From NCBI GenBank assembly GCA_903813345.2, contig CAIIXF020000008.1, positions 36,354,867-36,418,866 on the forward strand: DNA of 64,000 nt, read 5' to 3'. Each line of letters begins with the position of its first letter. Within the stretch, counting starts at the first letter, position 1. The translations under genes were made by a program, and so were the position numbers. Below, in pieces: positions 4,840 through 64,000 of the stretch. Under the pieces are notes generated by a model, which was not told the DNA's origin, did not search any database, and worked only from the letters and a program-made list of their open reading frames with translations. This DNA is from Owenia fusiformis (Eukaryota > Annelida > Polychaeta > Sabellida > Oweniidae).

Positions 4840-7800
4840 AACTGGGAAACGAGTATGATGAAAATAGGATTTAACGAAATGATGTTTCCAATGTCAAAAT
4901 GATCATATGAAACAAAACAAATGAGAAAGTTTTACATCATTGTAAAGATGGCGCTTAGATATTTTTAATTCTATGTTGCATCTTGTATATAACGTGCTAT
5001 TTATTAGAAATGATGTCACTAACCTTGTAAAGGTGTCATTGCGATCAAATGAGATTTTCTAAAGGCACATTATTTCACAGAAAAGCACGAAAGGCAACAT
5101 TTTATTATCCATCAGAATTATACAACTAAGACAAAATCGAGCAGATGTTTAAATAAGACATTTTAGCGCCACTTCTATAGAACTACAATCAGATTAGCAT
5201 ACAAAGGATCTATTTTATTTTTCACCAAAATACGCTTTTCTAGTTTAGACGTACATGAAGTCATAGAGTGTGAGAAATCAAATGTGTGATGGCAACGTAA
5301 ACAATAAACAATATACAACTTGAGCAAATAATGAGAATGCTTGATACAGATGAAGGACACTAACTTATCAAAAATACAAATGATACCAACAAAATGATAA
5401 TTTATTTTATTTATTTTAAAGTACACTTTTATCGTAACATAAAAGACTACAGGTTCACCCGTAATTATCTCGTCCATTTAACACGATATATCGTTTACGT
5501 AACTAACTTTTACTTTCAACATAAAAAGACAAGTCCTACAAGAGCACACAAAATCGGTGCGTCCATTTAAGGTAGCCTATCACATTTATAAAATATTTTC
5601 ATTTGGCTAGACTAATCTGGACAGTAATATTATACCATGACCGGAACGAAACAGTTGTCTGTAGTCTGTTTGTTATCCTTATTGACATAAACAAGATCTG
5701 TGCAAACCAAAATGTTGTCAAATATGATAGAATCGACATGGAAATCATGTTTAACCATGAGGAAATATACAGAAGTCACTATAATGATTTTGCCAATGTG
5801 ACTGAATAAGTTCTGCACAAACAAATATATAATCAATGATTATTTCGCCACTTCCTTGCATCGTTATTCCACATTCAGTACCATTCCGGCGCATTGGAAT
5901 CTCCAATATTAAGTTGATTGATGCATCGGATTAGAAGCTTGTTTATGGTCTAGGTAGACTGACCCTGAACGACCTTCAGATAAGTAAAAACAGCAGCATG
6001 GCACGAGTAAACAAGCACTTCCTCATACCACTACTAACCACTATCCAGTATCCAGTGACCATGTACAGTACTGTACACAAACCTTGAAGAGTACTCAGAT
6101 GTTTAGCTTATTCATATAGTCCATTTGCAAAATAGTAAAATTTCCCAAAGGGTTGTTTTTTATAGAATTTTTGGGTATTTTTGGATTGGCCTGCCCATGT
6201 CTACATAAAATATTAGCAAGGAGCAAAATTCTACATGTTGAACATTTTTTTTATATAAAACGGCATCGGAATTATGTAATAATGATTCCAGAAGTGGGCG
6301 TGGCACCTTACATTAAGTAAATAGATTATGACTAACCAAATATCCGTAAATATGAAATAGATTTGATTTACTTCAAATACATTTGCTGTAATTAATGAGA
6401 AATCAAAATAAAATTGAATGTTTTTTATAACAAAGAATATCATGTGCCTGAAGGGAATTAAACAAATCTATAACTGCAGGTGATTCTCTCAGAGTGACCA
6501 CTGCGGTTCAGATAATTAATTTAACTAACCACAAGTTTAAAAAATCGGTTAAAGACTTACGATAAATATTCTTCAGAATGACACGCGTCTGGAAGTACGG
6601 ATAGAACAATAGCGATAAACCCAGACACACTTTTGTCAAAGACAATGGTCAGAAAAATATAATTTATTGTTTCCCGTATTAAGAAAAAAATATCTAAGGT
6701 TTTTATAACGGTTTTCCACGAAATGATCTTAATTTAGGAAATATGTCGGGAAAACAAAGAGAGATGGACCTAAGCATCCAATGAAAGGTGGAATTGGTAG
6801 AAAATACATGCATTTTTTGTCATCTGTTGAAGTTTTTAAATATGTTAATCCCAACATTAAAAAGTTGAAATAACAAAAGTGATAAAAAAAACATCACAAC
6901 GTGTTCAATCTGTGTTTTGTGATAACTTTACATATTTTGTAATAACATTTATACATGTAGCTCTGTAAGAAATATCTTCTTTTATTGAAAAAAATTAAAG
7001 GCTTTTTGTTACAAACCATTAAACTTATTTTTAAATTTTTAATAAAAAAACGCACCTGCCTTTTTTCCCCGTGCAGGCTTTAACAATTGATTAAAATATA
7101 ATCATTTATTATACGAGTTTATCATTTGTTGAAATTGGATTCCATTGTCTGCTAGTCGTTCCCACGGAGAGATAATGAAAGCGCATCAAAAATAATACCC
7201 ATTGTCTGTTAGTTTTTCAATAAAAAATTGACATAGGGTTAGTGGTCAAGCTCAGCGAAAGCCCATCTGCTAGAATGCCAAGTTCGCTTTTTATGTATAA
7301 AAATACAATAATTGTAAAGTATATTAACAATAGCGAGTAATTGACCGTTAGGACAATACAATTCCATTGTTATGACTGAACCCCTAACCTTATCCATTCA
7401 ATGAGAAAAATTAAACTTTTTACCTCTCTTTTTGTTAATGGTCTTAATAAAAACGGCGTCTGTTGTCATAGACCACTGGTCACTTAGAGCACAGGTGATT
7501 CTTCATATTTATGCATTAAAACACAATTATTATAAATTTTATTAAAAAAATTATTTCGATTCAAAGGAGTGTCAATTTTTGTCGAGTACCACCCATTCAA
7601 AAACTTTGAAAGCCTTACAGTATATTTATCACGAAATGGTATAACCTTTACCCCCCTATTTATACCAGAAAAACATCCTAATATTGTCCCATCTGTTTTA
7701 TTTTCAATTTAAGGAGCATGTAAAAAAAGCTAGATAAAAATAAGTTTCCAGTTGGTGTGAAATAAAGAGGCTAAATATATAAGGTAACATCAGAAAACAG

Positions 7801-43827: not shown

Positions 43828-45291
43828 CTAATCCATCCAATTCAGTATAGTCCAATATACAGTCAGTCCAAATATTATGGCCATTGATGTTTTGAATGAT
43901 TTTGATGATACAGCATAAGATGTATAGCAGGCAGATATTTCATTTGTTGGCACTATGAAGTCAAAATCAATGGTGCTTTCATCATTCAGCCGATCATAAT
44001 TCCTTGTCCCATTGAGTCTGTTTAAGCGAAGGCGACTTATAGCTGGATGGACTTGTTTTATCTTAGTACAACTGAACACAACATCAGTGTATTTGTCTGT
44101 TATCTCCAAGATTGTCATTCTGTTTATTTTTCCTGGTATCCCGGTAGCATTAAACGCATGCATTTCATTAGGAGTTATTCTACACAGTTCCATAAGGTCT
44201 TCTTTGTTGAGTAGCGTCCATTGTTCTCTGACATCAGTATCATTAGATTTGATTTTACCACATTTGATGGCGTCTACAGTTGACCAGCAAATATGCCCGT
44301 TGAGGTAGTCAAGTAGGGTATTCCCAGGAAGTCTGTGTTTGTGATCGCGATGGATAATATCAGCTTTGCCATTTGTTGATATCCTCCAGAGGTCCATGCT
44401 TGCTGAAGTTGGCATGTTCCAAACCTGTATGAACAATACGACATCCCCACTCTCTGCATCCCCACTCTCTGCATCCCCTCTCTCTGCATTGAGGTTCTGG
44501 TTAGTGATTGCATATTCATAAGGCATTTGGTCTGCTTCAAGAGCTGATAGCTCCTGCATCTTTGTTGGTATTTCTGATGGGATACCTTCCAAGATTTTCA
44601 CAATCACAGTAGAGCATGTGAAAATATTGAAATTTCCACTAATCCTTTTACATGTTGGATCAACGATCCTCAACTCAATTTTTATTTTTGTGTTTCCATT
44701 GTTGTACTTGTAAAATGTCCGTGAAACAAAATAGATTTTGGAGTCATAATAGGCAAAGTAATCAAGATTATGATCGTCAAGCTTGTAAACCTGACTTGTT
44801 TTAATACTGGCTCTTAACTCTCCCGGAATTGTCATATTCAATGGCATTTTTTCAATCAGCATTTCTGGCTTACGATTATTCATTTCCCCGCATAGTTTAC
44901 TTTTTGCAATCCATATGAACACCTGATTATCGTTCCTTTCGTACCTAGGCTGCCCTAAAATCATCAAAACCTCTCTTGATATTGGATCGTATGAGGCTTT
45001 GATTAAAATTAAATTGCTTTTAAAGAAAAATGATTCACCAAATTCGGTGAAGTATCTTCCAGTGAGTAAGTTGTCTCCGTTGAGTAAGTTGTCTCCATTG
45101 AGTAAGTTGTCTCTGTTGAGTATGTTGGTAGCACTTACATCATGTTCCCAAGTTGTATCATTAATTTCTACTCCTTTTAGTTTGTGTCCAAAAACAGAAC
45201 AGGAATAATATAAGAAAACAGCTACATTTTCTGGAAGTACAATAGTCACCAGATATACCAAGAGAATCACATGGCAACACTTGTCACCCAT
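43828..45291 (-). CDS. Unrecognised secreted or GPI-anchored-like protein, nested gene
   Basis: An intact single-exon ORF of 487 codons on the strand opposite the F-box/WD gene, inside its second intron. Residues 1-25 (VILLVYLVTIVLPENVAVFL core) are a signal peptide or anchor. The middle has paired cysteines and five or so N-glycosylation sequons (NDT, NMT, NDT, NAT, NGT). The last residues are a hydrophobic run (SMAIIFGLTVYWTILNW) followed only by MD, as in GPI-anchor signals, preceded by small residues (SSKS). Strand-rich patterns such as YFAYYDSKIYFVSRTFYKY suggest a beta-propeller or beta-sandwich ectodomain, but I recognise no family. Two in-frame minisatellites are translated: three 18-bp units (LLNGDN) near residues 60-80 and three 15-bp units (AERGD/AESGD) near 268-283. 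A minus-strand AATAAA lies about 347 bases downstream. Confidence 0.75.
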   Translation of the reverse strand: MGDKCCHVILLVYLVTIVLPENVAVFLYYSCSVFGHKLKGVEINDTTWEHDVSATNILNRDNLLNGDNLLNGDNLLTGRYFTEFGESFFFKSNLILIKASYDPISREVLMILGQPRYERNDNQVFIWIAKSKLCGEMNNRKPEMLIEKMPLNMTIPGELRASIKTSQVYKLDDHNLDYFAYYDSKIYFVSRTFYKYNNGNTKIKIELRIVDPTCKRISGNFNIFTCSTVIVKILEGIPSEIPTKMQELSALEADQMPYEYAITNQNLNAERGDAESGDAESGDVVLFIQVWNMPTSASMDLWRISTNGKADIIHRDHKHRLPGNTLLDYLNGHICWSTVDAIKCGKIKSNDTDVREQWTLLNKEDLMELCRITPNEMHAFNATGIPGKINRMTILEITDKYTDVVFSCTKIKQVHPAISRLRLNRLNGTRNYDRLNDESTIDFDFIVPTNEISACYTSYAVSSKSFKTSMAIIFGLTVYWTILNWMD

Positions 45292-45339
45292 GATTATTAG
45301 GTGTGGCCTTTTTGAATTACCATAAACTACAGGTTCATG

Positions 45340-47605: not shown

Positions 47606-47947
47606 TATCAAGTTTAGATCGTGTTAAATTGTGCGTTCGTCTCGTCTACACAACGTATCCAAGCAGTTCAATTACGTCCTTAATCAGTTTAAACCAGTTG
47701 ACAATAAGTTGTACCTCGTTCTCAATACGTCCTAATATGTTACTGAAATTTGCACCAAATTTTCATACGGTTGAACTCGTTCTAAAATAGTAAACAACGT
47801 GTCCCTAATCCGTGCAGAACGCATTTATAATCCCCTATTTTCCTGATTGCGGAAATACTCAGTGCGATGTTTTCCGTATTAACTCATGTTCGCCAACTCG
47901 TAGGAACACATCGGACATCATAACATCCACGTGTACGATCGATCGTC

Positions 47948-48430
47948 ATGCCTCCAAAGAAAAGTAAATGCAAAAAGAGAAAAAGCGAAGATGGAGACGT
48001 CCATGGGCCTCCTGTCCCTCACTGTGTGGTGCAAGAAAAGCAACAACCCAAATCGCCTGTTGCATCTGGGTCAGAGGGCCATGACTCTGAGATAGACAGT
48101 CAGGAGGGAAAGAAAAAAAAACAAAGAACAAGAACACACCCCAATATGACAAAAGAAAACCAACAACTTATGGTAGAATGGCTCAAGCAACACGTAATAT
48201 TATACAACAAAAAAAACTATATTTGGCAGCAACAAGCAGATGCTCTTGGAATAAAAATAGATGAGCTGAGGGTGTGGTATACAAGCTTGAGGACCCGGTT
48301 TACGAAATTAAACAAGAAGAAGTCGGGAGATGGCTTGTCTGAGATGACCGAAAGAGACCAATGGGTGCTGGATAACTTTTGTTTTCTAGCCCCATTTACA
48401 TATGAAGTTAAGAAAAGGACAGTAGTTAGT
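47948..48430 (+). CDS. Harbinger MADF/Myb-like protein, exon 1
   Basis: A 161-codon exon starting MPPKKSKCKKRKS with a basic nuclear-localisation-like N-terminus. Residues about 70-150 (NQQLMVEWLKQHVILYNKKN, then YIWQQQADALGIKIDELRVW) are a MADF/SANT-like three-helix domain, the DNA-binding partner protein of PIF/Harbinger elements that brings the transposase to the ends. It ends at AGT|GTAAGT and joins in phase 0 to exon 2. Confidence 0.8.
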
Positions 48431-48842
48431 GTAAGTATATCTTGCAAGAACAACGTTAAATCAGAATTTTATTAAATAATTTTGACTTATTATTTCTAGT
48501 TATTTCAAGGTACAAATAATTCATGCTAAACATGTTCGAGAAAGTATTATCTATAATGTATGAAATGTTAGAAAAATATGAATATAAGCCATATATAATA
48601 TTAGAATTAACAGTACAAGGGAATCTGAAAGGGTGGGGAAAGTGGAAATCGCTGGATTATCACGTCGCACTGACTATGGTTCTATAAATATGTGGATCAT
48701 CCTTAAATTGTTTCATGTATATAATTATCGATACGTAGACATTGTTATGTGTATTTTACCATTATGTCTTCATAATAAGAAAATGTATCACTCATTTATT
48801 TATGTTATTATTAATTGTTGTGGTTAATTTTTATTTTTTCAG

Positions 48843-49355
48843 CTCAAGTCCAAAATACCTCCACCATCAGCTTCAAGCATCGACCTCGTAGATGATGAGC
48901 TTCGTGATACTCCATCTGGGGAAATGACAAGTCAGGAGTCTGGTAATCAGAAGCAGGTGATCCCTAATCAAACTGCAGCCTCTGCTTACTCAATTTCCTC
49001 AGCACCAAAACCCTCAGATTCATTCAGCTCTGCCATAAGCGGGAAGATGGAACAATTTATTGAGATGCAAAACCGCATAATGCAACAAATGGTTAGGCCT
49101 AAGACAGATAGAATGAAGGAGGTATTCATTGACTATATCAGGGAGTCTGTTTATGACATCCATCCGACATTGTGGATAGACCTGCACAGAGACATAATGA
49201 AGACGTTGCTTACGTATAAAGACAAGGACGGTGAGTTAAAAAAGGTCCAACAGCGAGATTCGCGATCATCAGATACGTCTTCAATAGAACCTTGTGGGTC
49301 ATCCGGTTGGCAGCCACCTCCTGAAACGTGGCCATCAACAGTCCATAATCCGTGA
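48843..49355 (+). CDS. Harbinger MADF/Myb-like protein, exon 2
   Basis: Acceptor TTTTTTCAG|CTCAAG continues the frame for 170 codons (LKSKIPPPSASSIDLVDDEL, a Ser/Pro/Gln-rich linker, then a helical segment MKEVFIDYIRESVYDI, a BESS-like position). The frame ends with a TGA at 49353 just where a second frame with fitting composition takes over, indicating a frameshift near 49350. Confidence 0.7.
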   Translation, partial: LKSKIPPPSASSIDLVDDELRDTPSGEMTSQESGNQKQVIPNQTAASAYSISSAPKPSDSFSSAISGKMEQFIEMQNRIMQQMVRPKTDRMKEVFIDYIRESVYDIHPTLWIDLHRDIMKTLLTYKDKDGELKKVQQRDSRSSDTSSIEPCGSSGWQPPPETWPSTVHNP

Positions 49356-49567
49356 GTGTGTTTAGGTCCACTGAGCCTGAGTGGGTGCAACAGCAATTCC
49401 CCCAACAACAGCAGTTGACGATACCTACACTGGCCTCCGCAACTCTAAACAACCAGCGTCAGAGGATGTATCCTTCTGGAGCAAGAGCATTTGTTAATAG
49501 TAAGCAGCAACATCATCACCAACAGGAGAACGAACAAGAGCTTTCTCAATTTGAAGATAGTGATTAG
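49352..49567 (+). pseudogene. Displaced C-terminal tail of the MADF protein
   Basis: In the neighbouring frame, about 71 Gln-rich codons (EPEWVQQQFPQQQQL ... NEQELSQFEDSD) follow directly on the premature stop. Composition and position suggest that it was the original C-terminus, cut off by a small indel. A 14-base GTGAGTGTGTTTAG between the two frames looks like a mini-intron but is too short to be spliced. Confidence 0.6.
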
Positions 49568-50876: not shown

Positions 50877-51615
50877 TTAAATCATTCCATCCTGCCATGG
50901 TACACTTCCCGCTGGGCTGTTGAAATAGGCCTTTAAATAGTCCCTCTGTCTCTTAGCCAGAAATGTGTCCCTGTTTCCACCCTGTGGAACGTTCAAGTCT
51001 GGCAGGTTAGCATCGATTCTCCAAGCACCAGGTATAACGTTATATTCGGCGTCTTCTGCATCCAATTGTATGTTCTGAATGGTTGGATTTCGGAGCCGAA
51101 TAAAGTTATGAAGGCACACGCAACATTCAACGATAGTCTGTATGGTGACTACTCTCTGTTGCATTGTGGATAAGAGGACTCTCCATCTTTGTGCCAAAAT
51201 TCCAAATGCATTTTCGACTATACGTCTGCCTCTAGAGATACGATAGTTAGCTATCATCTCTTCTCTTGTCAGATTGCGGGCTGAATATGGCTTCATCAGG
51301 TAAGTGCGGAGACCGAAAGCGTCATCGCCCAGGATAAAATAGGGAAAGTCCTGTGTATCATTTGGCAAGGGGTTGGGCGGAGGGAGTCCGATGGACCCAT
51401 CTTCTAAGCAATCTCTGAGTTCTGACTGGTTGTAGATTTTGGCATCCGACTGACTTCCACAACCACCAACATCTATCCACATGAACTTATAATCGGCATC
51501 TACTAGGGCCATAAGGACAATAGAAAAGAAGCCTTTATAATTGTGGTACATGCTTCCAGTTTTTGCAGGCTTTTTAATGGCTACATGCTTTCCATCTAGG
51601 GCACCGCAGGAATGT
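50877..51615 (-). pseudogene. Harbinger transposase, C-terminal (catalytic) part
   Basis: An open frame from about 51615 to the stop at 50877. It begins FPHSCGALDGKHVAIKKP, the first catalytic Asp box of DDE_Tnp_4 (HARBI1-like) transposases, and continues ALVDADYKFMWIDVGGCGSQ, SDAKIYNQSEL, FILGDDAFGLRTYLMKPY (second Asp) and NYRISRGRRIVENAFGILAQ then RWRVL (the catalytic Glu in VENAFG). The triad is thus intact in this part. Its N-terminal half is in another frame, so the gene as a whole is broken. Confidence 0.88.
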
Positions 51616-52126
51616 GGGAATGTGGATCCTTAAGCACCATCACCAACGCCTCACAGACGTCTTTCACCAACAAGGAGATTGTATTTTGGGCTACTCGGAA
51701 TTCATATTGAAGGCTTACATATGAATTTCCTGTTGCCAAATGACGCAAGATAATAGCAAGTTTCATTCCTGGTTGAAGAGCCTTTCTGTAGTTGGTGTCT
51801 TGTTTTTTAATGAAGGGGGTGATACGTTCAACAAGTTCGTCAAACATAGGTGGGGTGATCCTCAAAAAGTTATGAAACGTATTTTCATCATTCAGTCGAA
51901 GTTCCTCCATCAGCTGATGATAATGTCCTACAGCTATTCTCCTTTCAGGTGTCAGCCAATTCCTCACCCAATACGTTCTTGGTGTTCTATTTTGTCGCGT
52001 TACAATCCCATTGTACTCCTGCTCTGCTTCCATCAACAACTGCATATAACCAACGTTCACAATATTAAGGGCTGCAAAGACACCCATGGTTCCCATCGTT
52101 CTTGGCAGTTTATTGAAAATCTTCAC
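51596..52126 (-). pseudogene. Harbinger transposase, N-terminal part
   Basis: 176 codons upstream of the catalytic part: RTYWVRNWLTPERRIAVGHY, FHNFLRITPPMFDELVERIT, YRKALQPGMKLAIILRHLAT and GNSYVSLQYEFRVAQNTISL are the standard N-terminal helix-turn-helix region of PIF/Harbinger transposases. It ends in a stop in the wrong frame (HSHIPAVP) that overlaps the start of the catalytic frame. Relatives have roughly 30 more residues here, so a deletion plus frameshift at about 51600-51630 is the likely break. Confidence 0.82.
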
Positions 52127-53756: not shown

Positions 53757-53878
53757 GATTCATCTGTGCCTAGTAAATAACTGGATGAAATTTGGTTTAA
53801 ATACTCACATCTTATCTGAACCTGACATTCCACTCGACAAAGCAGTATCACACCATTCTCCCAGTTTCACCTATAAAG
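53757..53878 (+). CDS. F-box/WD40 protein, coding exon 3
   Basis: Acceptor CTTTTTCAG|GATT to donor TATAAAG|GTAAGT. It completes the Trp codon split from exon 2 and encodes IHLCLVNNWMKFGLNTHILS, then EPDIPLDKAVSHHSPSFTYK, the linker after the F-box, ending with one base of a Val codon finished by exon 4. The last 25 bases (53854-53878) are the first unit of the 30-bp tandem array, so the donor and the last eight codons belong to the repeat. The frame stays open through the array, so a later donor could add ten-residue blocks. Confidence 0.82.
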
Positions 53879-54678
53879 GTAAGTATTCTCTCAGTTTCAC
53901 CTATAAAGGTAAGCATTCTCCCAGTTTCACCTATAAAGGTAAGTATTCTCTCAGTTTCACCTATAAAGGTAAGCATTCTCCCAGTTTTACCTATAAAGGT
54001 AAGCATTCTCCCAGTTTCACCTATAAAGGTAAGCACTCTCCCAGTTTCACCCATAAAGGTAAGCATTCTCCCAGTTTCACCTATAAAGGTAAGCATTCTC
54101 CCAGTTTCACCTATAAAGGTGAGCACATTCTCCCAGTTACACTTATAAAGGTAAGCATTCTCCCAGTTTCACCTATAAAGATAAGTAATCTCCCAGTTTC
54201 ACCTATAAAGGTAAGCAATCTCCCACTTTCACTTATAAAGATAAGTATTCTCCCACTTTCACCTATAAAGGTAAGCAATCTCCCAGTTTCACTTATAAAG
54301 ATAAGTATTCTCCCACTTTCACCTATAAAGGTAAGCATTCTCCCAGTTTCACTTATAAAGGTAAGCATTCTCCCAGTTACACTTATAAGGAATAAGTATT
54401 CTCCCACTTTCACCTATAAAGGTAAGCATTCTCCCAGTTAACCTATAAAGGTAAGCATTCTCCCAGTTACACTTATAAAGGTACACACTCTCCCAGTTTC
54501 ACCTATAAAGGTAAGCATTCTCCCAGTTAACCTATAAAGGTAAGCATTCTCCCAGTTACACTTATAAAGGTACACACTCTCCCAGTTTCACCTATAAAGG
54601 TAAGCATTCTCCCAGTTACACTTATAAAGGTAAGCATTCTCCCAGTTACACTTATAAGGAATAAGTATTCTCCCACTA
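53854..54678 (+). repeat. 30-bp tandem array carrying the exon 3 splice donor, about 27 copies
   Basis: The unit is GTAAGCATTCTCCCAG plus TTTCACCTATAAAG. Each unit therefore has a 3'-splice-site-like TTCTCCCAG and an AAAG|GTAAG donor. GT donors occur at 53879 and every 30 bases to 54119 (nine sites, all in the frame of exon 4), then after a 32-bp unit at 54151, 54211, 54271, 54331, 54361, 54422, 54451 and further to 54630. Units at 54181, 54241 and 54301 have AT instead of GT. About 20 units keep GTAAG or GTGAG; two have GTACA. Confidence 0.95.
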
Positions 54679-55051
54679 AAGCTGAACACTCATCCAATTA
54701 TCGCTTCTGATTCTCTAACCAGTGAACAACTACAGTACCTTGATTGCCAGGTAAAATGAATTTTCCCAAGATAGAAAAAAGCTGCTAATGAAACTCTAAT
54801 TTTAGATATCTATTCTATAGTAGCGAGGTATTACTTCCGAATGGACGTGGGCATTAAGTCATTCAAATTGGCAACATAGATTAGTCTGAATCCTGATATG
54901 CAGATTCAATTTACTAGTCTCAATTTACTGTCTTCTAACTGTCACCTAGAATTGCTTTTTCACACAAAATGACTTCTCACTTTACACAGTTGTTACTGAA
55001 TTAATAAATGTTATTTTTCAGAGCTTAATTTCCATAATTGTGAATTCACTA
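54679..55051 (+). other. Intron sequence after the donor array
   Basis: Starts with a 24-codon open stretch that ends at CAG|GTAAAA (54750). As an exon it does not fit the phase of exon 4, so it is treated as intron. Confidence 0.5.
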
Positions 55052-55235
55052 CAGCAAAACCTGTCTAATCCTTCTTATTGTTAGTGGGACCAGCAAAAGT
55101 GTTTGCATTTGTAGGTGTTCATATTTCAAGGTTCTTAATGTTTGAGTCAATGGAAGAACAAAATCAGGACCAAGAAAAAGTGTTTACATTAAGAGGTGTT
55201 CTAATCAGAGAGGTGTTCGGATATAGGTTTTAGTG
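55052..55235. mobile_element. TA-flanked MITE, 184 bp
   Basis: Starts CAGCAAAACCTGTCTAATCC and ends GGATATAGGTTTTAGTG, with TA on both sides (55050-55051 and 55236-55237). It fits the Tc1/mariner-type CAGTAAAACCTG family also seen at 46033 and 56414. Confidence 0.75.
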
Positions 55236-55333
55236 TACGTTTGAAGAGAGGACTGGCATTTAAATACTGTATAAAGATGGATTTGTTCTATTTGAGTTCA
55301 TCCTATCTTCATAAAAGTAGGATTAACTGAATA

Positions 55334-55865
55334 CTGTAAAACGGGTAATTTTGACACCAGGAAATTTTAGCGATTTTTCAATTTTAGGGGGTTTTAGCGC
55401 GGGAAATTTTAGCGAAATGAAGATTAATCTTTAAAAAATCAAATTAGCGAAATGCATAGGTGTATAGATTCTATTATATATATATAGACTTTGATTTTGA
55501 AAGTGATCCTTTACTCACTTATGGTACGGGAGAATTTAAGCAATATCATTGGTTGTTGAACCGTGTTCAATTAACACCTTTTATCTTTATATTTACTACT
55601 AATACTATTTCACTGATGGATGACTATTTATCCTTCAGATATTGAAAGAAACATACGATTTAAAAATATTTACCTTTTTCAAATTACAAACCGGAAGTAG
55701 AGCACTGAACGAAAAGCTCCTTAAATACTAGTATTCATGTAGTTTCCAGGGAATTTGCAAATTTTAGCGCCCGGTTTATTTTAACCCCGGTTTATTTTAG
55801 CGAATTGAATTTTTAGCGAAACTATAGCGATCGCTAACAATCGCTAACAATTACCCGTTTTACAG
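55334..55865. mobile_element. TA-flanked MITE, about 530 bp
   Basis: Ends CTGTAAAACGGGTAATT and AATTACCCGTTTTACAG are perfect inverted repeats with flanking TA (55332-55333 and 55866-55867). The subterminal parts repeat TTTTAGCG and AAATTTTAGCG words. Confidence 0.85.
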
Positions 55866-56206
55866 TACACTTTTTATTATGATATGGTAATCAGGTTCAA
55901 TAAAGTGAGAGAGACATTTGTTCTGGAACAAACCCCCTTAATTTCAGCATTAACAGGTCTCATGTTTAACTTTGACCATGGTAAGTGACTTTCTCTACTT
56001 GACTCAATGTTAAACTGTTTGAGCGAGAAAGGGCTTAGTAAATTTCAATGGAGGCAAATTGTTACCCATAATGCATTGCTCTACATTTCAACCAATAAAC
56101 ACCTGATCGTCAATTGTGTTTTTCTTCTGTTTTATCGCACATGTTTATAACACGCTCAATCCCAGTGTAGTGTCATATAAATGAGTATTTGCACATTTCA
56201 TTCCAG

Positions 56207-56359
56207 TGCCAAAAAGCATCAGTCTTCCGTCCCCATGCAAGTGGAAAATGACTTACATGCGCTGCCTCCATCTAATGAGAAACTGGCAACATGGGAGATA
56301 CGTAGTGGAGCCAATATTACGGGGACATAAGGAAAAAGTCTTAGCACTAGATTCTAATG
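56207..56359 (+). CDS. F-box/WD40 protein, coding exon 4 (linker and first WD blade)
   Basis: Acceptor CATTTCATTCCAG|TG to donor AATG|GTACAT. Encodes PKSISLPSPCKWKMTYMRCL, HLMRNWQHGRYVVEP, then ILRGHKEKVLALDSN. The W-K-x-x-Y-x-R ... N-W-x-x-G-R-Y pattern is the typical helix between F-box and propeller in FBXW proteins, and LRGH (about residue 138) opens the first WD repeat. Phase 1 in and out. Confidence 0.92.
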
Positions 56360-56413
56360 GTACATAATTTTCATTTTATATTATGGTATTTATAATGCAG
56401 TCTCAAATGAATA

Positions 56414-57279
56414 CAGTAGAACCTGTGTAAGTGGAACACCCTCCGTTCTGCCAAAAAGCGTTCCACTTAGGAGGTGTTCCACTTACGGAGGTTTTGAGTT
56501 CGCGGGGATTTGTAAACACACAAGATCAAACATTGGGTTTATATGTATCATGGAAAATACGATTCTCCGTTCATTGCAGGGCAGCAATATTCCATTAACT
56601 ATCCATTTGTTTTACTCAAAAAGGTATCTGACATTCGTAATCCTCCTCATTCTGCCAAAAATGTTTTCTGACATTCTTAATCCTCCTCATTCTGCCAGAC
56701 TCGGGCACAAAGATTTGGCAATTAAGTTTTAAAGACTTGTTCCAACTGCTCATAATTCATTTGTTTTTAACTGACATTCTTAATCTTACTTATCAAGTTT
56801 GAAACAAACAGCAAGGGGTATTAATTAGAGGTAGCATCACTTGTCCATCTCTACAGGAGGTTAATCCAATTTGATGAATGATAATCTTATGAAATCCTTA
56901 TTTGCTAATTATCGAATTAATTAGTGGTAGCATCACATGTTTATCTACAGGAGGTTAATCCAATTTGCTATATGGTAATCTGTTAAAATCCTAATTTGCC
57001 AATTATCACGTTATTACCTGTTTTCAAACCCAGATATCACTGGAGGAGGTTAATTCTGTTTACATAAGTATCAATATTCAAATTCATGGAAAGTTGACTG
57101 TTCCACTTAGCAGGTTAATTTTCCAATATGGGGTGTTCACTGTTCAAGTTTGGAGGTGTTCCACTTACAGAGGTTCAATTAATATTAAGTCAATGGGTTT
57201 TTAAAACGGGACTTTGAAAAAGTGTTCCACTTGCGAGGTGTTCCACTTACGGAGGTGTTCCACTTAGCAGGTTCTACTG
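56414..57279. mobile_element. TA-flanked MITE, about 866 bp
   Basis: Starts CAGTAGAACCTGTGTAAGTG and ends CACTTAGCAGGTTCTACTG with TA on both sides (56412-56413 and 57280-57281). GTTCCACTTACGGAGGTGTT words are repeated near both ends. Two internal segments (TTAATTAGAGGTAGCATCAC near 56820 and TTAATTAGTGGTAGCATCAC near 56917) are a tandem duplication. Confidence 0.85.
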
Positions 57280-57888
57280 TACTTGTTTTTCTCAATCTCA
57301 AATTAGTTTTTGTTTTTGTGAAAATTTTCTCTGATTGACAAATGTATGAATGTATTTCTACATTGTCTGAAACTGACTGAAAGATAAATTATATATTAGA
57401 AATCTTGACAGAGAGCATGACATATTTATCATCCATTTTTGTTTAACATGGTTGCAAATTACATTTTATGAATAAAACTTGACAGAGATATTCAAACAGA
57501 TTATTTATCATTGCATAGTCTGACTTTCAAACTACAATAGGAAATGCTGAAACAGGTGGAACGCATAATAGCCAAACATTACATAAAACCTAATCTGAAT
57601 GGCACTTGATTTGACCAAAAGTGTTTGGATTTGCAAGTGTTCACATGAAAATCTATGGTAGACTATAATTTCTGCAATACATTTGAAGTCACGCTAGTTT
57701 TTTTTACGTGACAGAATATGTCACGCAAATACCCATTTTACCTGATTATTGTCAGGCAAAATTATTTCTGTAGAAAAATTTCAAAAAAAACCCATCGCAT
57801 TTCGTTCTGACTTGTCACGCGGATACAGTATATGTCATATGTTAGGTGTTCCCAAGTTGACAGGCCTGAAAAAGCATTCATAATGAGA
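57280..57888 (+). other. Intronic sequence with MITE fragments
   Basis: AAAAGTGTTTGGATTTGCAA and GTGTTCACATGAAAATCTAT near 57620 resemble the interior of the 55052 element. No coding signal. Confidence 0.4.
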
Positions 57889-57970
57889 GATATTCCGATA
57901 AAAAAGGTATACTGATATAAAAGGAATCCGATATAAAAGGTATTCCGATATAAAAGGTATTCCGATATAC
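57889..57970. repeat. Minisatellite, about 5 copies of a 17-bp unit
   Basis: GATATAAAAGGTATTCC repeated with small changes, ending about 30 bases before exon 5. It runs into CATGTTTTACTGTA, a CAGTAAAACCTG-like MITE end, so it may have grown from a MITE terminus. Confidence 0.8.
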
Positions 57971-58000
57971 ATGTTTTACTGTAATATAATGCCATTGTAG

Positions 58001-58122
58001 ATACTGTGATTGTCAGTGGTGGAGCTGATTCCCGTCTTAGGATATGGGACATTGAGTCTAGACTCTGCCTACATGACATCCAGGTGCCAAATAATGATGC
58101 TATTAATGCAGTGAAAATAATT
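58001..58122 (+). CDS. F-box/WD40 protein, coding exon 5 (WD blade)
   Basis: Acceptor GCCATTGTAG|AT to donor ATT|GTAAGT. Encodes TVIVSGGADSRLRIWDIESR then LCLHDIQVPNNDAINAVKII. SGGADSRLRIWD is a clear WD signature with the Trp-Asp at about residues 166-167. The first codon (Asp) is split with exon 4; the exon ends in phase 0. Confidence 0.93.
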
Positions 58123-58161
58123 GTAAGTACATGTACATCACTGTTCCACAGCTGGATGACT

Positions 58162-58263
58162 CTAACTGCAGTTAGCTTCATTCAAGACGGTTGCCGAAAT
58201 TAGAGGTTAAACGAAATTGAAAGAAATTTGGCAACCATCTTGAATAAAGCTAACTGCAGTTAG
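58162..58263. mobile_element. 102-bp hairpin MITE
   Basis: CTAACTGCAGTTAGCTTCAT then TCAAGACGGTTGCC is inverted at 58230-58263 with two mismatches. CTAACTGCAGTTAG is itself palindromic. It lies in the intron after exon 5. Confidence 0.75.
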
Positions 58264-58470
58264 AAATGCTCTCATGTCAGAACATATAGAGTTCTTATAT
58301 TCACATACAATGCTTAGTATTATAGCTATATCTTAAACTAATTTTGAGATAAGGTTGTCATGGTAACCTGTATTAATCTCTGCTTTCAAACCAATAAAAT
58401 AAAAGACAATTTTATGTTCCGATTTTTTATTTTTGATGTAATTTGCTACTGTGCTTACACATGTGACTTC

Positions 58471-58841
58471 AGGAAGACACTATTGCTGCCTTATTTACCA
58501 CGGCAATTCTAGGAAGACACTGTTGCTGCCTAATTTGACTCTGGTTAATTCAAGAAGACATTATTGCTGCTTAAATTTACTCTTCCCTTTCCAGGAAGAC
58601 ACTATTGCTGCTTAATTTTACTCTGCCCTTTTCAGGAATACACTATTGCTGCTTAATTTTACTTTGCCCTTTTCAGGAAGACACTATTGCTGCTTGATTT
58701 TACTCTGCCCTGTTTAGGAAGACACTATTGCTGCTTAATTTTACTCTGCCCTTTTCAGGAAGACACTATCGCTGCTTAATTTTACTCTACCCTTTTCAGG
58801 AAGACACTGTTGTAGCAGGCTGCTCAGATGGTAGTATTAAA
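58471..58841 (+). repeat. 41-bp tandem array carrying the exon 6 splice acceptor, 9 copies
   Basis: The unit is GAAGACACTATTGCTGC, then TTAATTTTACTCTGCCCTTT and TCAG. Copies of the exon start begin at 58473, 58513, 58554, 58595, 58636, 58677, 58718, 58759 and 58800; spacing is 41 except the first (40). The last copy is the real exon 6. All except the third (AA for AG) have an AG, most with TTTCAG or CCAG and a TTAAT branch-point-like word. An upstream copy used as exon start would read EDTIAA and stop at TAA in most units. Confidence 0.95.
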
Positions 58842-58951
58842 GTATATAATGCTTACACAGCATCTCTGGTGGCCACTCTCTGGTCTCATATAGGGAGTGT
58901 CGATCACATAGCATTTGATGGCAGAACTGTGACCAGTTGTAGTGCAGATAA
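58800..58951 (+). CDS. F-box/WD40 protein, coding exon 6 (WD blades)
   Basis: Acceptor CCCTTTTCAG|GAAGAC to donor GATAA|GTATGC. Encodes EDTVVAGCSDGSIKVYNAYT, ASLVATLWSHIGSVDHIAFD and GRTVTSCSAD. The blade ends KVYN instead of the usual WD. The ninth repeat copy is chosen as exon start because only it keeps frame with exon 5 (phase 0) and reads into WD sequence; it departs from the array after GAAGACACTGTTG. Confidence 0.93.
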
Positions 58952-59327
58952 GTATGCATCAACTTCATTTTAGAAATTTTTAAAGTAATTAATTTCTAAA
59001 AAGTTGTAATATGTTTACAGGTTATAGGAAATGTACAATTTTAAATTATGAATTGATTTGATAGTTCGTTCAATATCCCCATATCTTATTCAATCAATCC
59101 ATTGGCAAAACCTGCTGATAGAATTCATACTGCAGCGAAAGATGCAGAAGCACAATGGGCAATATTTGAAACACACAACACAAATGATACCTATAAAGTT
59201 TATTTAAGAAATTATTTTTTTGTGCAAAAGGGTTTATAAATTTAAAAATTGGGATTCTTTATTGTAACAATAATGTTTTAAGTTTGAAATTTCATTTCAT
59301 TATCTCTTTTTATTTTTATTTATTTAG
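58952..59327 (+). other. Intron between exons 6 and 7
   Basis: AT-rich with no repeat array at either junction. The acceptor is TTTATTTATTTAG. Confidence 0.6.
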
Positions 59328-59406
59328 AACCCTAAAGGTTTGGGATTTGTGTCAAAGTATTGGGAAATTAAAGTACACACTACATGGTCACACAGATGAG
59401 ATAGAG
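59328..59406 (+). CDS. F-box/WD40 protein, coding exon 7 (WD blade)
   Basis: Acceptor TTATTTAG|AACC to donor GAG|GTATAT. With the split Lys codon it reads KTLKVWDLCQSIGKLKYTLH then GHTDEIE: the end of one WD repeat (KVWD, about 245-248) and the GH that starts the next. It ends in phase 0. At least three more blades are expected for a seven-bladed propeller and are not found before 64000, so the gene must continue past the window. Confidence 0.92.
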
Positions 59407-59764
59407 GTATATGTTACATTTTATTATTGTGGCTTGCTTTTGTGACTTAGATGTTTATTGTGGTAAGGTTCAACGTTACTGAGTGTGTCACAACAATTTT
59501 CGAATTTGAATCAAAGACCATTTCAGAATTTTCTCATACGTGTGAATAAAACAACCAGATGAAGACAATTTGAAATAATACTACGATAAAAACTCTGAAT
59601 ATTTGAAAATTTAAACCTTCTCTTTGTGATAAATCTATTTAAAGTAGAACTTCAGTGTCAATCAGCTTTTTTCAAGGAGAAAAATATTCTGATGGATATT
59701 AGAATATGTATTGTGAAAATAAGAAAGATTGGCCATTTGGTTATTTCTAAAAACATTATTTTAA
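59407..59764 (+). other. Sequence after exon 7, no further exon seen
   Basis: Non-coding, presumably F-box/WD intron. Confidence 0.4.
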
Positions 59765-59943
59765 CCTCTTGACTACCTGGAGTGACGAGATTTACACAAA
59801 AATTGTTTTAAAATGTGTAGAAATTTTACTAGGTTGAGTATTTAAAGTTGTAAGTTGTATAGGTATGCAGTAAAATGTCAAAAGGTGGCAAAAATGAAAA
59901 ATGCTCTGGTTTCAACAGATTTTAGACTCTGGGATTCAAGAGG
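59765..59943. mobile_element. piggyBac-like MITE, copy 1
   Basis: Starts CCTCTTGACTACCTGGAGTG and ends GGGATTCAAGAGG, flanked by TTAA at 59761-59764 and 59944-59947. TTAA duplication with CCTCTTG ends is piggyBac-like. It lacks about 100 bp present in copy 2 (62932-63210). Confidence 0.8.
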
Positions 59944-60261
59944 TTAAACTTACATTGCTTTTCATGTGTTTCTGTGTTTTTTCGTTTAGAAATTATCAGC
60001 CATTTTGATAATCATTGTTGCACTTTGCTTGCTGCGTTCTGTTTGTTTTAGATACTCATAATTTAAGAAAATGTTATTAACATATTAAAGGGTCACTCAA
60101 ATCTGTTATGCTGTGATTGTTTGTTATCTTTTAAAACCTCTTGTTCAAGTTAATGAAATTGTGATTAACCATACGCAATTCACTTGACAGAACATTTTAT
60201 AACTTATTAAGTACAAGTTGAAATTAATAGATGTGACATGTGATGCAAGGTACAGAATACA

Positions 60262-60720
60262 TTTTTTTATTTTTTTATTTTTTTTTATTGGAATCACTAA
60301 CAAACATGCTTATACAATTACAGTCAAAATTAAAATACATAAGAATGTCACTAAAGTAACATCAATCCTTATTTTAAGGAATATATATTGTTTTCAGATA
60401 TTTTTTAAAACACTTATCTAAATCACCTTGGTCATTTCCCCAATCAATGAAAGCTTTATCACCCATGGTCAAGCATATTTTAATTTGAATATTATCGGAA
60501 ATAAGGCTAGATGACAATTGTTCATTACAGGAATTGATCACATTCAGAAAGAAGTTGGTTCTTTTATTGTCCAAATGAGGACAAACAAACATACAGTGCA
60601 GGATAGAGTCCTTGACATTGTTCCTTTGGCCCCATTCAGTCAGTATTCAGACCAAAGCACCCTGATCTTAACAGCATATATTCATGATTTATTTGCACTT
60701 GTAATCTTTTATTGATTAAT
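60262..60720 (-). mobile_element. 5'-truncated LINE 3' end with A-rich tail
   Basis: On the minus strand, a frame from about 60640 to a stop at 60374 reads NNVKDSILHCMFVCPHLDNK then RTNFFLNVINSCNEQL, the C-terminal pattern seen at the end of LINE ORF2 proteins (H-x-x-x-x-C-P ... R-x-x-F). It is followed by a short 3' UTR and an AATAAA-plus-A-rich tail (plus strand 60262-60289). Upstream frames are interrupted (TGA near 60650). It differs from the LINE at 196-4796, which ends in TAGTG repeats. Confidence 0.55.
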
Positions 60721-61465
60721 GCCACTCCTCCTTAATTTTATCCAGTTATTTTTTGATAAGTCTATCTTTATTAACATGTAGAAGTGTAACCCTATTTAAT
60801 TGAGGTTTCATGATTAATGTCATATTTTTTAGGGAACCCCCCTAAATAACTTTAAAATAAATGGCGAGTAAACTTAAGAAAACTATTCACTTATAATTTA
60901 AGGAATATAGGTCTAATACACATTCTGTGAAAATTTGAAGACAACTGATTAGGCCATAAGAAGTAGGTTATTTGTTTTGCGTCATGGCAAAATCCTAATC
61001 ATGCAAGGGTACAAGGAAAACAAACACAAACTCAAGAAAAAACACAAACTTGTTTATGGGCATATAAAGGAATGACATGCCAATTTGCAGTGATTACAAA
61101 CACATATCTATACATCCTATACAATATATTTAAGCATAGCTATTATTCAAGGGTACAAAATAAGAAAATACACAATGTATGCTAAAGTAATCAATAACAC
61201 TGTCAATTTTGACGCACATCAAATGATCTGCCATTTCGTCCGATTCTGATTGAATGAAATGCGATGGTACTTTCAAACCCTTGTAATTGTTATTTGTATG
61301 TGTTTGTTTTTTCTGATTTACTCAAAATCGTGCAAGCAAGGGGACGCAAAACAGAGAATGTACTTCTTATGGCCTTATTCAAAATATTACTATAGAAAGC
61401 ATATACCTAAAACACCAATGTGACATTTTACAAGATTTTAGGTACTTTTAGGTAATCTTTTGTCT
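60721..61465. other. Non-coding stretch
   Basis: No exon was recognised on either strand. Confidence 0.4.
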
Positions 61466-61471
61466 TTTAAT
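61466..61471 (-). terminator. Putative poly(A) signal of the LDLa-containing gene
   Basis: ATTAAA on the minus strand, about 91 bases after the stop codon and just past the 16-bp repeat array. Confidence 0.4.
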
Positions 61472-61492
61472 TCTACAATGAATATGTTCTGT

Positions 61493-61572
61493 GATAATCA
61501 ATATTGTAGATAATCAATTTTGTAGATAATCAATTTTGTAGATAATCAATTTTGTGGATAATCAACTTAGTC
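61493..61572 (-). repeat. 16-bp tandem array starting at the stop codon, 5 copies
   Basis: On the plus strand GATAATCAATTTTGTA in four near-perfect copies (61493-61556) plus a fifth diverged copy (61557-61572) that contains the last codons and TGA stop (62-64 of the 61500s) of the minus-strand gene. Each unit carries the same TTGATTATC, so the stop codon has been copied into the 3' UTR. Confidence 0.85.
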
Positions 61573-61775
61573 GATACCAAACTGCATGTGAGCAAAGCTT
61601 CTTTAACTCATTACCGTAGTAATAATCACCTGTTGCAAGTTTGGGTTCTGAAGCAAGGTAGTAGGGCATAATTCCATATCCTGTTATATTAAACCTGTCG
61701 GCTGTATGTTTCCAGGTTGTTTCCCTTGATGCGAAATTGTAGGAAAACTCATATTTCACAATGCCATCAACGTTC
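61562..61775 (-). CDS. LDLa-containing gene, terminal coding exon
   Basis: Acceptor CAAATGTGTTTCAG|GAACG. It completes an Arg codon from the previous exon and encodes NVDGIVKYEFSYNFASRETT, WKHTADRFNITGYGIMPYYL, ASEPKLATGDYYYGNELKKL and CSHAVWYRLS before TGA. One N-glycosylation sequon (NIT). I recognise no domain family; the aromatic-rich strand-like pattern suggests an extracellular beta domain. An in-frame Met upstream lies before the acceptor and is not the start. Confidence 0.75.
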
Positions 61776-61935
61776 CTGAAACACATTTGAGTTGGAGTAT
61801 TATCAAAGATCATCTAACTTGAAAACAAAAATGTTGTTACTGAAGTCATTACAATACATGGACTTAGTATCTACAGCTTTAAAACTTAATATTGTATTGT
61901 ACAGCTATCGCTGATGTTTTGAGTATTGGGTATCA

Positions 61936-62145
61936 TGTATTGTAAATTGGGCCCTTAAAAATTTTGGGCGAAAAAAGGCTTTAAGGCCCCAAAAAGTGGG
62001 CCTTATTTTTTAATATCAGGCCAAATTTTGAAGAAAATGGGCCTCAAAATTTCAAAATATGGGCCCACTTTTAGGTTTTATTTTTTTCTCTAACCTGAAA
62101 TTTGGCCCCCCCCCCTGTTGGTTCCCAGATCCGCCCCTGCATCTA
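61936..62145. mobile_element. Fragment of the GGCGGATC-end repeat family
   Basis: Read on the minus strand it starts TGCAGGGGCGGATCTGGGAA, then a G-run, followed by GGCCC/AAAATTTTGGG-type words as inside the element at 37397-37717. It lies in the last intron of the minus-strand gene. Confidence 0.6.
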
Positions 62146-62170
62146 TGACTGAAATAAAACACATATTTAC

Positions 62171-62357
62171 CTTCCGTCGCTATCTCTAAATGTATATATC
62201 CCTATGGCAGTTCCTAAAACAATCTGTGGAAAATATTCCAAGCTCTTCAAACTTTTTATTGTTGAAGTCATTGTAACAAATGAATAAGCATCCAGGATAC
62301 ATTGCTGTTTCCAAGGAAGAACTGTTTTCCAATTGTCGCCAATCTTGAAAGGGTTAA
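62171..62357 (-). CDS. LDLa-containing gene, penultimate exon
   Basis: Acceptor GCAACTTTCAG|TTAACC to donor GGAAG|GTAAAT. Encodes NPFKIGDNWKTVLPWKQQCI, LDAYSFVTMTSTIKSLKSLE, YFPQIVLGTAIGIYTFRDSD. Phases agree on both sides (Ile codon with the LDLa exon, Arg codon with the last exon), which strongly supports the three-exon chain. No family recognised. Confidence 0.75.
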
Positions 62358-62931
62358 CTGAAAGTTGCAATTAGTGAGGAGTTAATTCAAGAATTATGCC
62401 TAATGGGTGTAGAACTTCTGCTTGAGAAGGAATTTTCAATATGGCTGTTCAATTCAAAATGGCTGCCATTTTTTATTGAAAACGTAATCTTAAGTAAATC
62501 AAATCAAAGTGTAGTAGAGTGACACTCTATTATGACAATTTGGCCAATAGGGCCATTTTCAGAAATGGCAGCCATGGCTGTTCAAGGGAATTTCCTAAGC
62601 TTTTTCGTTTCTTTTATCTAGTTAAATATTCCTCAGTGTCATCTGGACAATTAAAAGTTGTTCACATTTTGCAGAACAAAATTAACTTGTCATGTGTGTC
62701 AAATTGTGACGATTCTTTTGTCAAGTGTCATGTTTACAAGGTCAAATAATCTACAAATGTAGGTGAGATGATCATAATTTTTGTGAATAAATGATTTGTA
62801 GCTGTCATTAAGGATCTATTATAGAAATGCTCAGAATTTTAGATATTTTTTAATCACATCCAAAAAGCACTTTGACTTTACAAATACAATGTAAGGAAGT
62901 TCATATCCCAGATTTTGAAATGTGTTTTTAA

Positions 62932-63210
62932 CCTCTTGGCTACCTGGAGTGATGAGATTTCTCATCGCCTCAGAAATGACCTTGAAACCCAGAGTGACGA
63001 GAAAATCTGTCACAAAATTTTTCACTAAAATTGCTCTTATTTGAATCCAATTTACACAACAATTGTTTTAAAACGTGTAGAAATGATCTCTGCTGTCCAA
63101 TTTTACTAAGTTGAGCACCTAAAGTTGTATGATGTATTAAAATGCGAAAAGGTGGAAAAAATGAAAAATTCTCTGGTTTCAACCGATTTTTGAGCCTGGG
63201 ATTCAAGAGG
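62932..63210. mobile_element. piggyBac-like MITE, copy 2
   Basis: Starts CCTCTTGGCTACCTGGAGTG and ends GGGATTCAAGAGG, flanked by TTAA at 62928-62931 and 63211-63214. It has a central segment of about 100 bp missing from copy 1. It lies in an intron of the minus-strand gene. Confidence 0.85.
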
Positions 63211-63340
63211 TTAAGCTTGGGCTACATGAACGAGGGGAAAAGCTGGCAACTGGCTGATATAGTCAGAGTTTTATTAATCTTTGTATAATTGGAGTCTTAT
63301 CAGTTTTGAATATTTGTAATTTGTTATCAAATGAACTCAC

Positions 63341-63398
63341 TGCATGATGTGTAAGACTCGTCAGATCCATCTAAGCAGTCCACTATGCCATCACAGCC
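63341..63398 (-). CDS. LDLa-containing gene, exon with second half of an LDL-receptor class A module
   Basis: Acceptor TTGTTATAG|GGCTGT to donor TGCA|GTGAGT. Encodes GCDGIVDCLDGSDESYTSC, the calcium-binding second half of an LDLa repeat (C-D-G-x-x-D-C-x-D-G-S-D-E-x-x-x-x-C). The first half with the other three cysteines should be in an upstream exon that I did not find before 64000, so this gene is 5' partial. Modules of this kind occur on extracellular or membrane proteins that bind ligands. Confidence 0.85.
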
Positions 63399-63848
63399 CT
63401 ATAACAATGTACAAGATAGTATGAATACTTTAAAATATAATCCTGTTTTGTTAATCTGAAACATAGAATCAAATGCTAAAGTCTGATGTGAGAAGCCAAA
63501 AGTCACTCAACCTCGAACCCTTGAATCCACAAAAATGTGATCCTGTTTATAATTTATTAATGTGGTGATTGCCTAAATAGTTGATTCAAAGAGATTTTAA
63601 AGGCTTCAAACAAATGGGATTCAGATGTTGAAAAGTTTAAAATTATGAAATCATGGATTGGGTCAAACATCATTGAAGTTCCATATTAATTCAATAATAT
63701 TTAATCCCTTTTAATTGAAAAGGAACACTTTGTCAGTTGAAATGATTATTTTTGAAAGTGAAATTAAATTCTATCTACACTCTGTGGAAACAGAAAACTG
63801 GAGGGTAAAGAAAGGTGAAGTAGGTTTTGTTTAAGATTAGTCTAGAAG
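63399..63848 (-). other. Intron of the LDLa-containing gene
   Basis: AT-rich, no exon with LDLa-type cysteines seen on the minus strand. Confidence 0.4.
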
Positions 63849-64000
63849 TTGTGAAAGGTTTCTCACCCATAGTGGATGAATTCATTCTCTTGATTCTGAA
63901 GTTGTGAAAGGTTACTCACCCATAGTGGATGAAAACATTCTCCTGATTCTGACGTTGTGAAAGGTTACTCACCAAAAATAATGAATTCATTCTCCTGATT
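63849..64000 (-). repeat. 52-bp tandem array with a splice-donor motif, at least 3 copies
   Basis: Plus-strand GTTGTGAAAGGTTACTCACC recurs at 63849, 63901 and 63954 (first copy TTTCTCACC). On the minus strand each unit reads ATCAGGAGAATG, about 16 bases, then G|GTGAGTAACC. The copy next to the window edge reads NQENEFIIF in one frame before its donor and is the likely real exon end, with the other copies inside the intron. The array is cut by the window end. Confidence 0.85.

Follow-up and report, generated by a model that had tools for sequence, protein, structure and literature searches.

The 64,000-nucleotide stretch of the annelid Owenia fusiformis analysed here (contig CAIIXF020000008.1, positions 36,354,867 to 36,418,866; G+C content 0.35), hereafter the window, carries towards its end an F-box/WD gene on the plus strand and a putative haemoglobin-linker-like gene on the minus strand, in both of which minisatellites overlap boundaries of the gene structure. 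Tandem repeats of the window were called with Tandem Repeats Finder (TRF), which recovered all four arrays that an initial annotation, made from the letters alone, had described at these boundaries. Their units are unrelated, as it had stated, and a single repeat family was rejected on this ground.

The 30-bp donor-junction array (53854–54675, +; 27.3 copies) lies at the end of the F-box/WD coding exon at 53757–53878 (+), which is recognised by its acceptor TTTTTCAG|GATTC, an open frame and an in-phase join to 56207. The working donor, cctataaag|GTAAG at 53878|53879, is that of the first, 5′-most copy, and the 26 further copies are intronic by the gene model. The 41-bp acceptor-junction array (58468–58812, +; 8.4 copies) is the mirror case, with the functional acceptor cccttttcag|gaagacactg at 58799|58800 in its last copy and the upstream copies in the intron, again by the gene model. 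The 52-bp donor-junction array (63845–64000, −) is cut by the window end, where TRF calls it as 53 bp in 3.0 copies; in 5 kb of further contig (L001, positions 1–639) it extends 639 bp beyond the window, to 64639, and reaches 12.3 copies with 15 copies of GGTGAG. Its functional donor, CTTCTG|GTGAG with 64598 as the last exon base (64598|64597, −), lies outside the window, and the intron-distal copies inside the window are therefore intronic. These three splice-junction arrays are real, and their extra copies all run away from the exon. The initial annotation had noted this direction for both F-box/WD arrays, in which the copy holding the splice site is indeed the exon-side end, and its guess that the 52-bp array behaves likewise was borne out. 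The window units hold part of an exon, never a whole exon with both splice sites.

The fourth array has a 16-bp unit in 5.2 copies (61493–61576, no strand assigned) and overlaps the stop codon TGA at 61562–61564 together with 12 bp of the coding end of the linker-like gene. It had been taken for another instance of the same phenomenon. Because arrays of its short-unit class show no excess at exon edges (1/48, see below), we set it apart; it is probably coincidental and unrelated to the junction arrays.

Both host genes are recognisable by homology. The joined F-box/WD exons match F-box/WD protein 7 (FBXW7-like) over residues 52–205 with an E-value of 4.2e-45, and the gene has a Pfam WD40 match (7.6e-17); the exon at the donor array is followed by one leading into the WD repeats (56207–56359, +) and by two WD-repeat coding exons (58001–58122, +, and 58800–58951, +), the latter behind the acceptor array. 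On the minus strand, the LDLa exon at the 52-bp array joins in frame to the LDLa second-half exon GCDGIVDCLDGSDESYTSC at 63398–63341 (−; that is, 63341–63398) as ...GECIHSLL-GCDGIVDCLDGSDE, and the joined exons match Pfam Ldl_recept_a at 1.4e-10. The last coding part of this gene occupies 61565–61775 (−), preceded by the acceptor TTTCAG as seen in the sequence; taken by itself, the 83-aa open frame that ends at the TGA gives no Pfam match. The joined protein matches haemoglobin linker chain L1 of PDB entry 2gtl, which we take to be the earthworm's, with an E-value of 6.3e-12 over residues 25–201 of 236, of which the LDLa domain carries part; the Pfam search found nothing above the cut-off in this protein but the LDLa domain. 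Elsewhere in the genome, the family Eryth_link_C, presumably that of the annelid erythrocruorin linkers, has three matches, all above the cut-off. Window positions 61565–64000 (−) together with L001 thus appear to form a haemoglobin-linker-like gene, with an LDLa domain and a linker-like C-terminal part, weakly similar to known linkers.

Excess of long multi-copy arrays at exon edges

A comparison of array positions with exon edges, as proposed by the initial annotation, was run on a sample of 64 loci (246,363 bp, 327 exons, 652 exon edges and 225 fully bounded introns). Sample 1 comprised 16 myosin and 17 dynein regions picked by exon density and sample 2 comprised 16 dynein AAA_6 and 15 kinesin regions, with intron medians of 318 and 336.5 bp, respectively. 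The family matches inside the loci that were used numbered 141/172 in sample 1 and 141/232 in sample 2, and 27 and 9 exon pairs, respectively, were not boundable. Arrays with a unit of at least 28 bp in at least 2.4 copies were classed as long multi-copy arrays. This "long unit, multi-copy" rule was derived from sample 1, whose repeat list already contained units with internal splice sites, and was fixed in writing before sample 2 was inspected; as written it was limited to bounded introns, with 30 bp and 4 bp, whereas the main count took 28 bp and 3 bp and considered every exon edge. Three exons were added by eye at arrays of sample 1, two in the myosin locus L006, which when joined give a Myosin_head match of 2.3e-6, and one in L010, for which a myosin match was looked for and not found and which was recognised by a motif. 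The window and a kinesin array (L066/L067) that had been chosen for its array were left out of all counts. Two null models were used. In the placement null, each array was collapsed to one unit, units were placed randomly and placements entirely within exons were rejected; in the harsher within-intron null, the position was drawn inside the array's own intron, shortened to its pre-expansion length.

Over both samples, 17 of the 25 long multi-copy arrays cross an exon edge against 4.9 expected under the placement null (P=4e-8), where at least 202 of the 652 null edges are match ends rather than proven splice sites and further exons would lift the expected number somewhat. Without the three by-eye exons the count is 14/25 against 4.8 expected (P=2e-5), and when the marginal array L020, which only abuts its acceptor by eye, is also removed, 13/25 remain (P=1e-4). 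Two other marginal arrays, L048 and L062 6254–6401, include the splice signal by eye and are outside the 17. The excess is present in sample 1 (11/16 crossing versus 3.3; without by-eye exons 8/16 versus 3.3, P=0.006) and again in sample 2 (6/9 versus 1.5, P=0.001), which the by-eye exons do not affect and in which five of the six crossing arrays lie in kinesin genes. Under the within-intron null, 9/11 arrays cross against 3.9 expected (P=0.0004, both samples); for sample 2 separately, the written rule gives 5/6 versus 1.9 (P=0.003) and a wider reading, which admits two arrays with base periods of 16 and 20 on the strength of their longer periods, 5/8 versus 2.1 (P=0.013).

No edge excess was found in the same loci for short-unit arrays (<28 bp; 1/48 versus 2.3 expected) or for long units of at least 28 bp in fewer than 2.4 copies, hereafter two-copy arrays (2/12 versus 2.7 expected). 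Counting L055 by eye raises the latter to 3/12, which differs from 17/25 with P=0.03 (Fisher's test). A first comparison, based on present intron lengths and all units of at least 10 bp, was not significant (5/23 versus 2.8). The data thus support an excess of long multi-copy arrays at junctions, that is, a non-random process, in this sample of conserved genes. The recurrent process postulated by the initial annotation is upheld to this extent, for donors and acceptors alike. The local cluster in the window is not special, with the 17 crossing arrays spread over 14 of the 64 loci. Some loci hold several junction arrays, namely three in the myosin locus L006 and two by automatic count in the kinesin locus L062, where a third is seen by eye only. 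L062 is an extreme case, and so is an 18-copy acceptor array with a 159-bp unit in a kinesin gene.

Among 18 sampled arrays classed by eye, nine are at donors and nine at acceptors. By sequence and gene model, each unit joins an exon segment, which can be as short as the final bases, to the splice site and a stretch of intron; the copy that is used sits at the edge of the array next to the complete exon, and the others are intronic. How much of the unit is exonic varies evenly (n=17, Kolmogorov–Smirnov P=0.65), the breakpoint is not fixed relative to the splice site, and even the 260-bp unit of L006 departs from the exon sequence short of where the exon ends. Unit length is independent of the reading frame (9/22 units divisible by 3), which agrees with the copies being spliced out. 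Of the 139 extra copies that 18 arrays contain, 133 retain GT or AG, against 127.5 expected; the extra copies keep these dinucleotides about as well as other bases, and spare splice sites are therefore not purged. Moreover, junction arrays are more homogeneous than others, with a median TRF score per bp of 1.79 (n=18) versus 1.18 (n=12; P=0.0008).

Two further candidates were rejected: whole-exon duplication with mutually exclusive exons, as the window units and even the 260-bp unit of L006 do not hold a whole exon with both splice sites, and coding repeat peptides, as the units disregard the frame. Separately, we observed that one dynein exon of L038 (PF12774 positions about 56–164) is present in three tandem copies (1362–1662, 2528–2846 and 5877–6189), and that a muscle-type myosin gene at G000:C9:37986009–37994334 (−) has 12 successive separate matches to about PF00063 positions 18–84, a candidate cluster of mutually exclusive exons.

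Relation to known boundary repeats

The initial annotation knew of no described system of this kind, which does not hold: minisatellite-like tandem duplications of exon-intron boundaries have been described in amphioxus as "mirages", in Adh3 and in the globin genes BflGb6 and BflGb9 (PMC3087553). In these genes the 5′ or the 3′ boundary is duplicated, units measure 10–72 bp or 150–160 bp, and AG or GT is kept in many but not all copies. Mirages are further characterised by concerted evolution within a cluster with the boundary copies left out, by undisturbed regular splicing and by a copy number that is unstable between haplotypes and in the soma; reverse transcription PCR and haplotype or somatic length change were reported for the amphioxus genes (PMC3087553). 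Boundary-spanning units of varied length at either intron end, with AG or GT kept in many copies, are common to both systems. The amphioxus cases are a handful of cephalochordate genes with RNA and length-change evidence, whereas here the host is an annelid, 652 edges were covered, the evidence is a statistical excess and the arrays are known from the sequence of one assembly. Units that span the boundary of a real coding exon are found in the three window arrays and in 17/25 long arrays (14/25 without by-eye exons), either boundary is duplicated (9 donor and 9 acceptor arrays), and many but not all copies keep AG or GT (133/139). The window and sampled arrays accordingly match junction-anchored minisatellites of the mirage kind in the features that sequence can test, with a mixed picture for concerted evolution, in which the arrays differ.

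Other systems are related less closely. In human genes of segmental duplications, internal tandem repeats at exon-intron boundaries have units near 30 bp, longer than those of other repeats (PMC2812944); these belong to recent paralogues, lie in exons or at boundaries and may form novel introns, whereas the arrays described here stand beside existing introns of conserved genes. Tandem genomic duplication of a segment with splice signals can also create introns (PMC3443670, PMC3629103). A duplicated segment with splice signals is common to both cases, but there it supplies both intron ends and here only one. In earthworm metallothionein genes, intron 1 is filled with repeats and extra copies of exon 4 are absent from the transcript (PMC12783039). 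These share with our arrays the annelid host and intronic minisatellites; they differ in their monomers of about 180 bp and their restriction to one gene family, and the accessible passages make no link to junctions. Introns from tandem arrays were reportedly also described by Zhuo et al. in 2007. A literature search of open papers found no study that counted boundary arrays across a genome and compared the count with a null. The structure itself is already known; new here are the annelid host, the measured numbers and the hint of a junction bias in expansion or retention rather than in birth.

Origin and possible significance of the junction arrays

The expanded arrays are biased to junctions and the two-copy arrays are not, which favours a random origin of these mirage-like minisatellites, with a junction bias that sets in only with their expansion or retention. 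Because the two-copy class is small, we give this mechanism about an even chance of being correct. Small tandem duplications would arise randomly, by slippage, template switching or unequal exchange. Splicing defines the exon as a whole; extended to these arrays, this would make a junction-straddling duplication tolerable, with the copy attached to the full exon being used. The exon copy, held by coding selection, could then seed expansion repeatedly, while a duplication entirely within the intron would decay, so that random duplications would leave junctions with a lasting surplus of expanded arrays. Reseeding from the exon copy is a proposal.

Several points weigh against this reading. The class of long units in fewer than 2.4 copies is small (n=12), and sample 2 is partly dependent, with 16 of its 31 regions being neighbouring exons of dynein genes, nearly all of which are in sample 1. 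Normal splicing is assumed. In L034, L062_D57, KIN_A159 and WIN_D52 the extra copies are more alike among themselves than when compared with the exon copy, and in others this is not so; in those four the exon copy therefore does not homogenise them, a pattern that speaks against reseeding. A first version of a polarity analysis found 13 arrays more alike near the exon, one opposite and four tied (P=0.011). With both end copies removed, greater likeness near the exon was seen in eight arrays out of 11, the opposite in two and a tie in one (P=0.11), and we make no claim for a polarity of copy similarity. Furthermore, a genome-wide scan for the donor heptamer AGGTAAG, occurring three times at a spacing of 15–45 bp with the reversed word as control, does not support a genome-wide excess. 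The raw hits, 942 for the donor word versus 516 for its reversal, are windows that overlap within arrays, and among the places listed, the distinct arrays counted by eye number 17 for the donor word (first 100 places, C1 and C2 to 31 Mb) versus about 20 for the reversed word (C1 and C2 to 29.6 Mb). The 17 exclude nine loci of one dispersed family, and two of the about 20 control arrays are irregular.

The donor-word arrays, the only ones followed up, extend the range of host genes. At least seven of the 17 lie on apparent coding donors (L070, L072, L073, L076, L077, L082 and L084), and the structure is therefore not limited to motor proteins. Homology is firm for HSP90/TRAP1-like and AIMP1-like exons (HSP90 7.5e-8, tRNA_bind 3.5e-12) and weak for carbonic anhydrase (0.037), hydrolase (0.055–0.085) and aminotransferase (0.27–0.95) matches, the last of which is outranked by unrelated partial matches; in L072 and L077 an open frame and splice signals alone point to a coding donor. 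Among the others, L068 and L075 are in a dispersed repeat, L080, L081 and L083 lie elsewhere, L078 is ambiguous, and in four of the 17 (L069, L071, L074 and L079) the upstream edge was not reached. Two further repeat observations were made: G000:C1:2960661 and eight more listed loci belong to a dispersed repeat family with AGGTAAGGAGGAGGT units, and a common AGGTGAGGCAA core is present in minisatellites at three unrelated places (L016 89–295, L081 and L083).

The main rival is a mutational process specific to junctions, in which polymerase pausing, R-loops, replication conflicts or the step in composition from exon to AT-rich intron raise the frequency of tandem duplication and expansion. It would account for the excess at donors and acceptors alike, for the younger look of the more homogeneous junction arrays and for the several arrays in L006 and L062. 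The two-copy long duplications, which are closest to new events, and the short units of the same loci argue against it, as neither is enriched at edges, and so does the variable breakpoint relative to the splice site; we regard this explanation as possible, on the unlikely side. Of the two mechanisms named by the initial annotation, growth from junctions and selection that keeps one copy, the lack of a two-copy excess leans to the second, and the two are not separated by these data.

Chance placement combined with tolerance, in a minisatellite-rich genome with short introns where crossing a junction is neutral, agrees with the intron medians and the abundance of arrays, with the first comparison and with the heptamer control, in which the reversed word has as many distinct arrays among the listed places as the donor word. 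Both nulls reject random placement for the long multi-copy arrays, and this makes the explanation improbable. That selection maintains the extra splice sites because they are useful, as decoys, redundancy, recruiters of splicing factors or regulated alternative sites, is very unlikely: the retention of GT or AG is slightly above expectation, but shared descent makes this count non-independent, units vary from gene to gene and disregard the frame, the 41-bp acceptor unit of the window, read from the sequence, has an in-frame stop, and of the 26 extra copies in the 30-bp donor array of the window, five no longer have GT. Introns being born by tandem duplication of exonic AGGT segments would use the same raw material (PMC3443670, PMC3629103, PMC2812944), yet in bounded introns none of nine crossing long arrays covers both intron ends, which mostly refutes this origin for the bounded cases and leaves it hardly credible.

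Returning to random birth with junction-biased expansion or retention, a broader and more doubtful proposal is that junctions act as permanent minisatellite seeds across bilaterian genomes, where intronic duplications would be erased and those at junctions kept and re-expanded, so that a few per cent of splice sites would carry arrays of spare sites. If true, coding selection would be the cause of a non-coding repeat landscape, and junction arrays would be a large source of both cryptic splice sites and new introns. In the papers found, boundary minisatellites came from single amphioxus genes or recent human duplications; that an excess was measured in the conserved genes for dynein, kinesin and myosin of a distantly related animal suggests a general feature of genomes. 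Two old questions become testable with these arrays: how the splicing machinery copes with as many as dozens of nearly equivalent splice sites in succession, and whether junction arrays are the starting point of intron growth and of new introns. Gene prediction calls for caution, as exon fragments with splice signals recur in introns up to 27 times.

Two further features of the window lie upstream of the F-box/WD exons described above. A 446-aa open frame without a Pfam match at 44002–45339 (−) contains two in-frame coding minisatellites (18 bp in 3.6 copies and 15 bp in 3.2 copies). A DDE_Tnp_4 transposase, which we take to be Harbinger-like, is encoded at 50880–51629 (−; E-value 1.9e-31), with neighbouring open frames at 47924–49564 that have no Pfam match.

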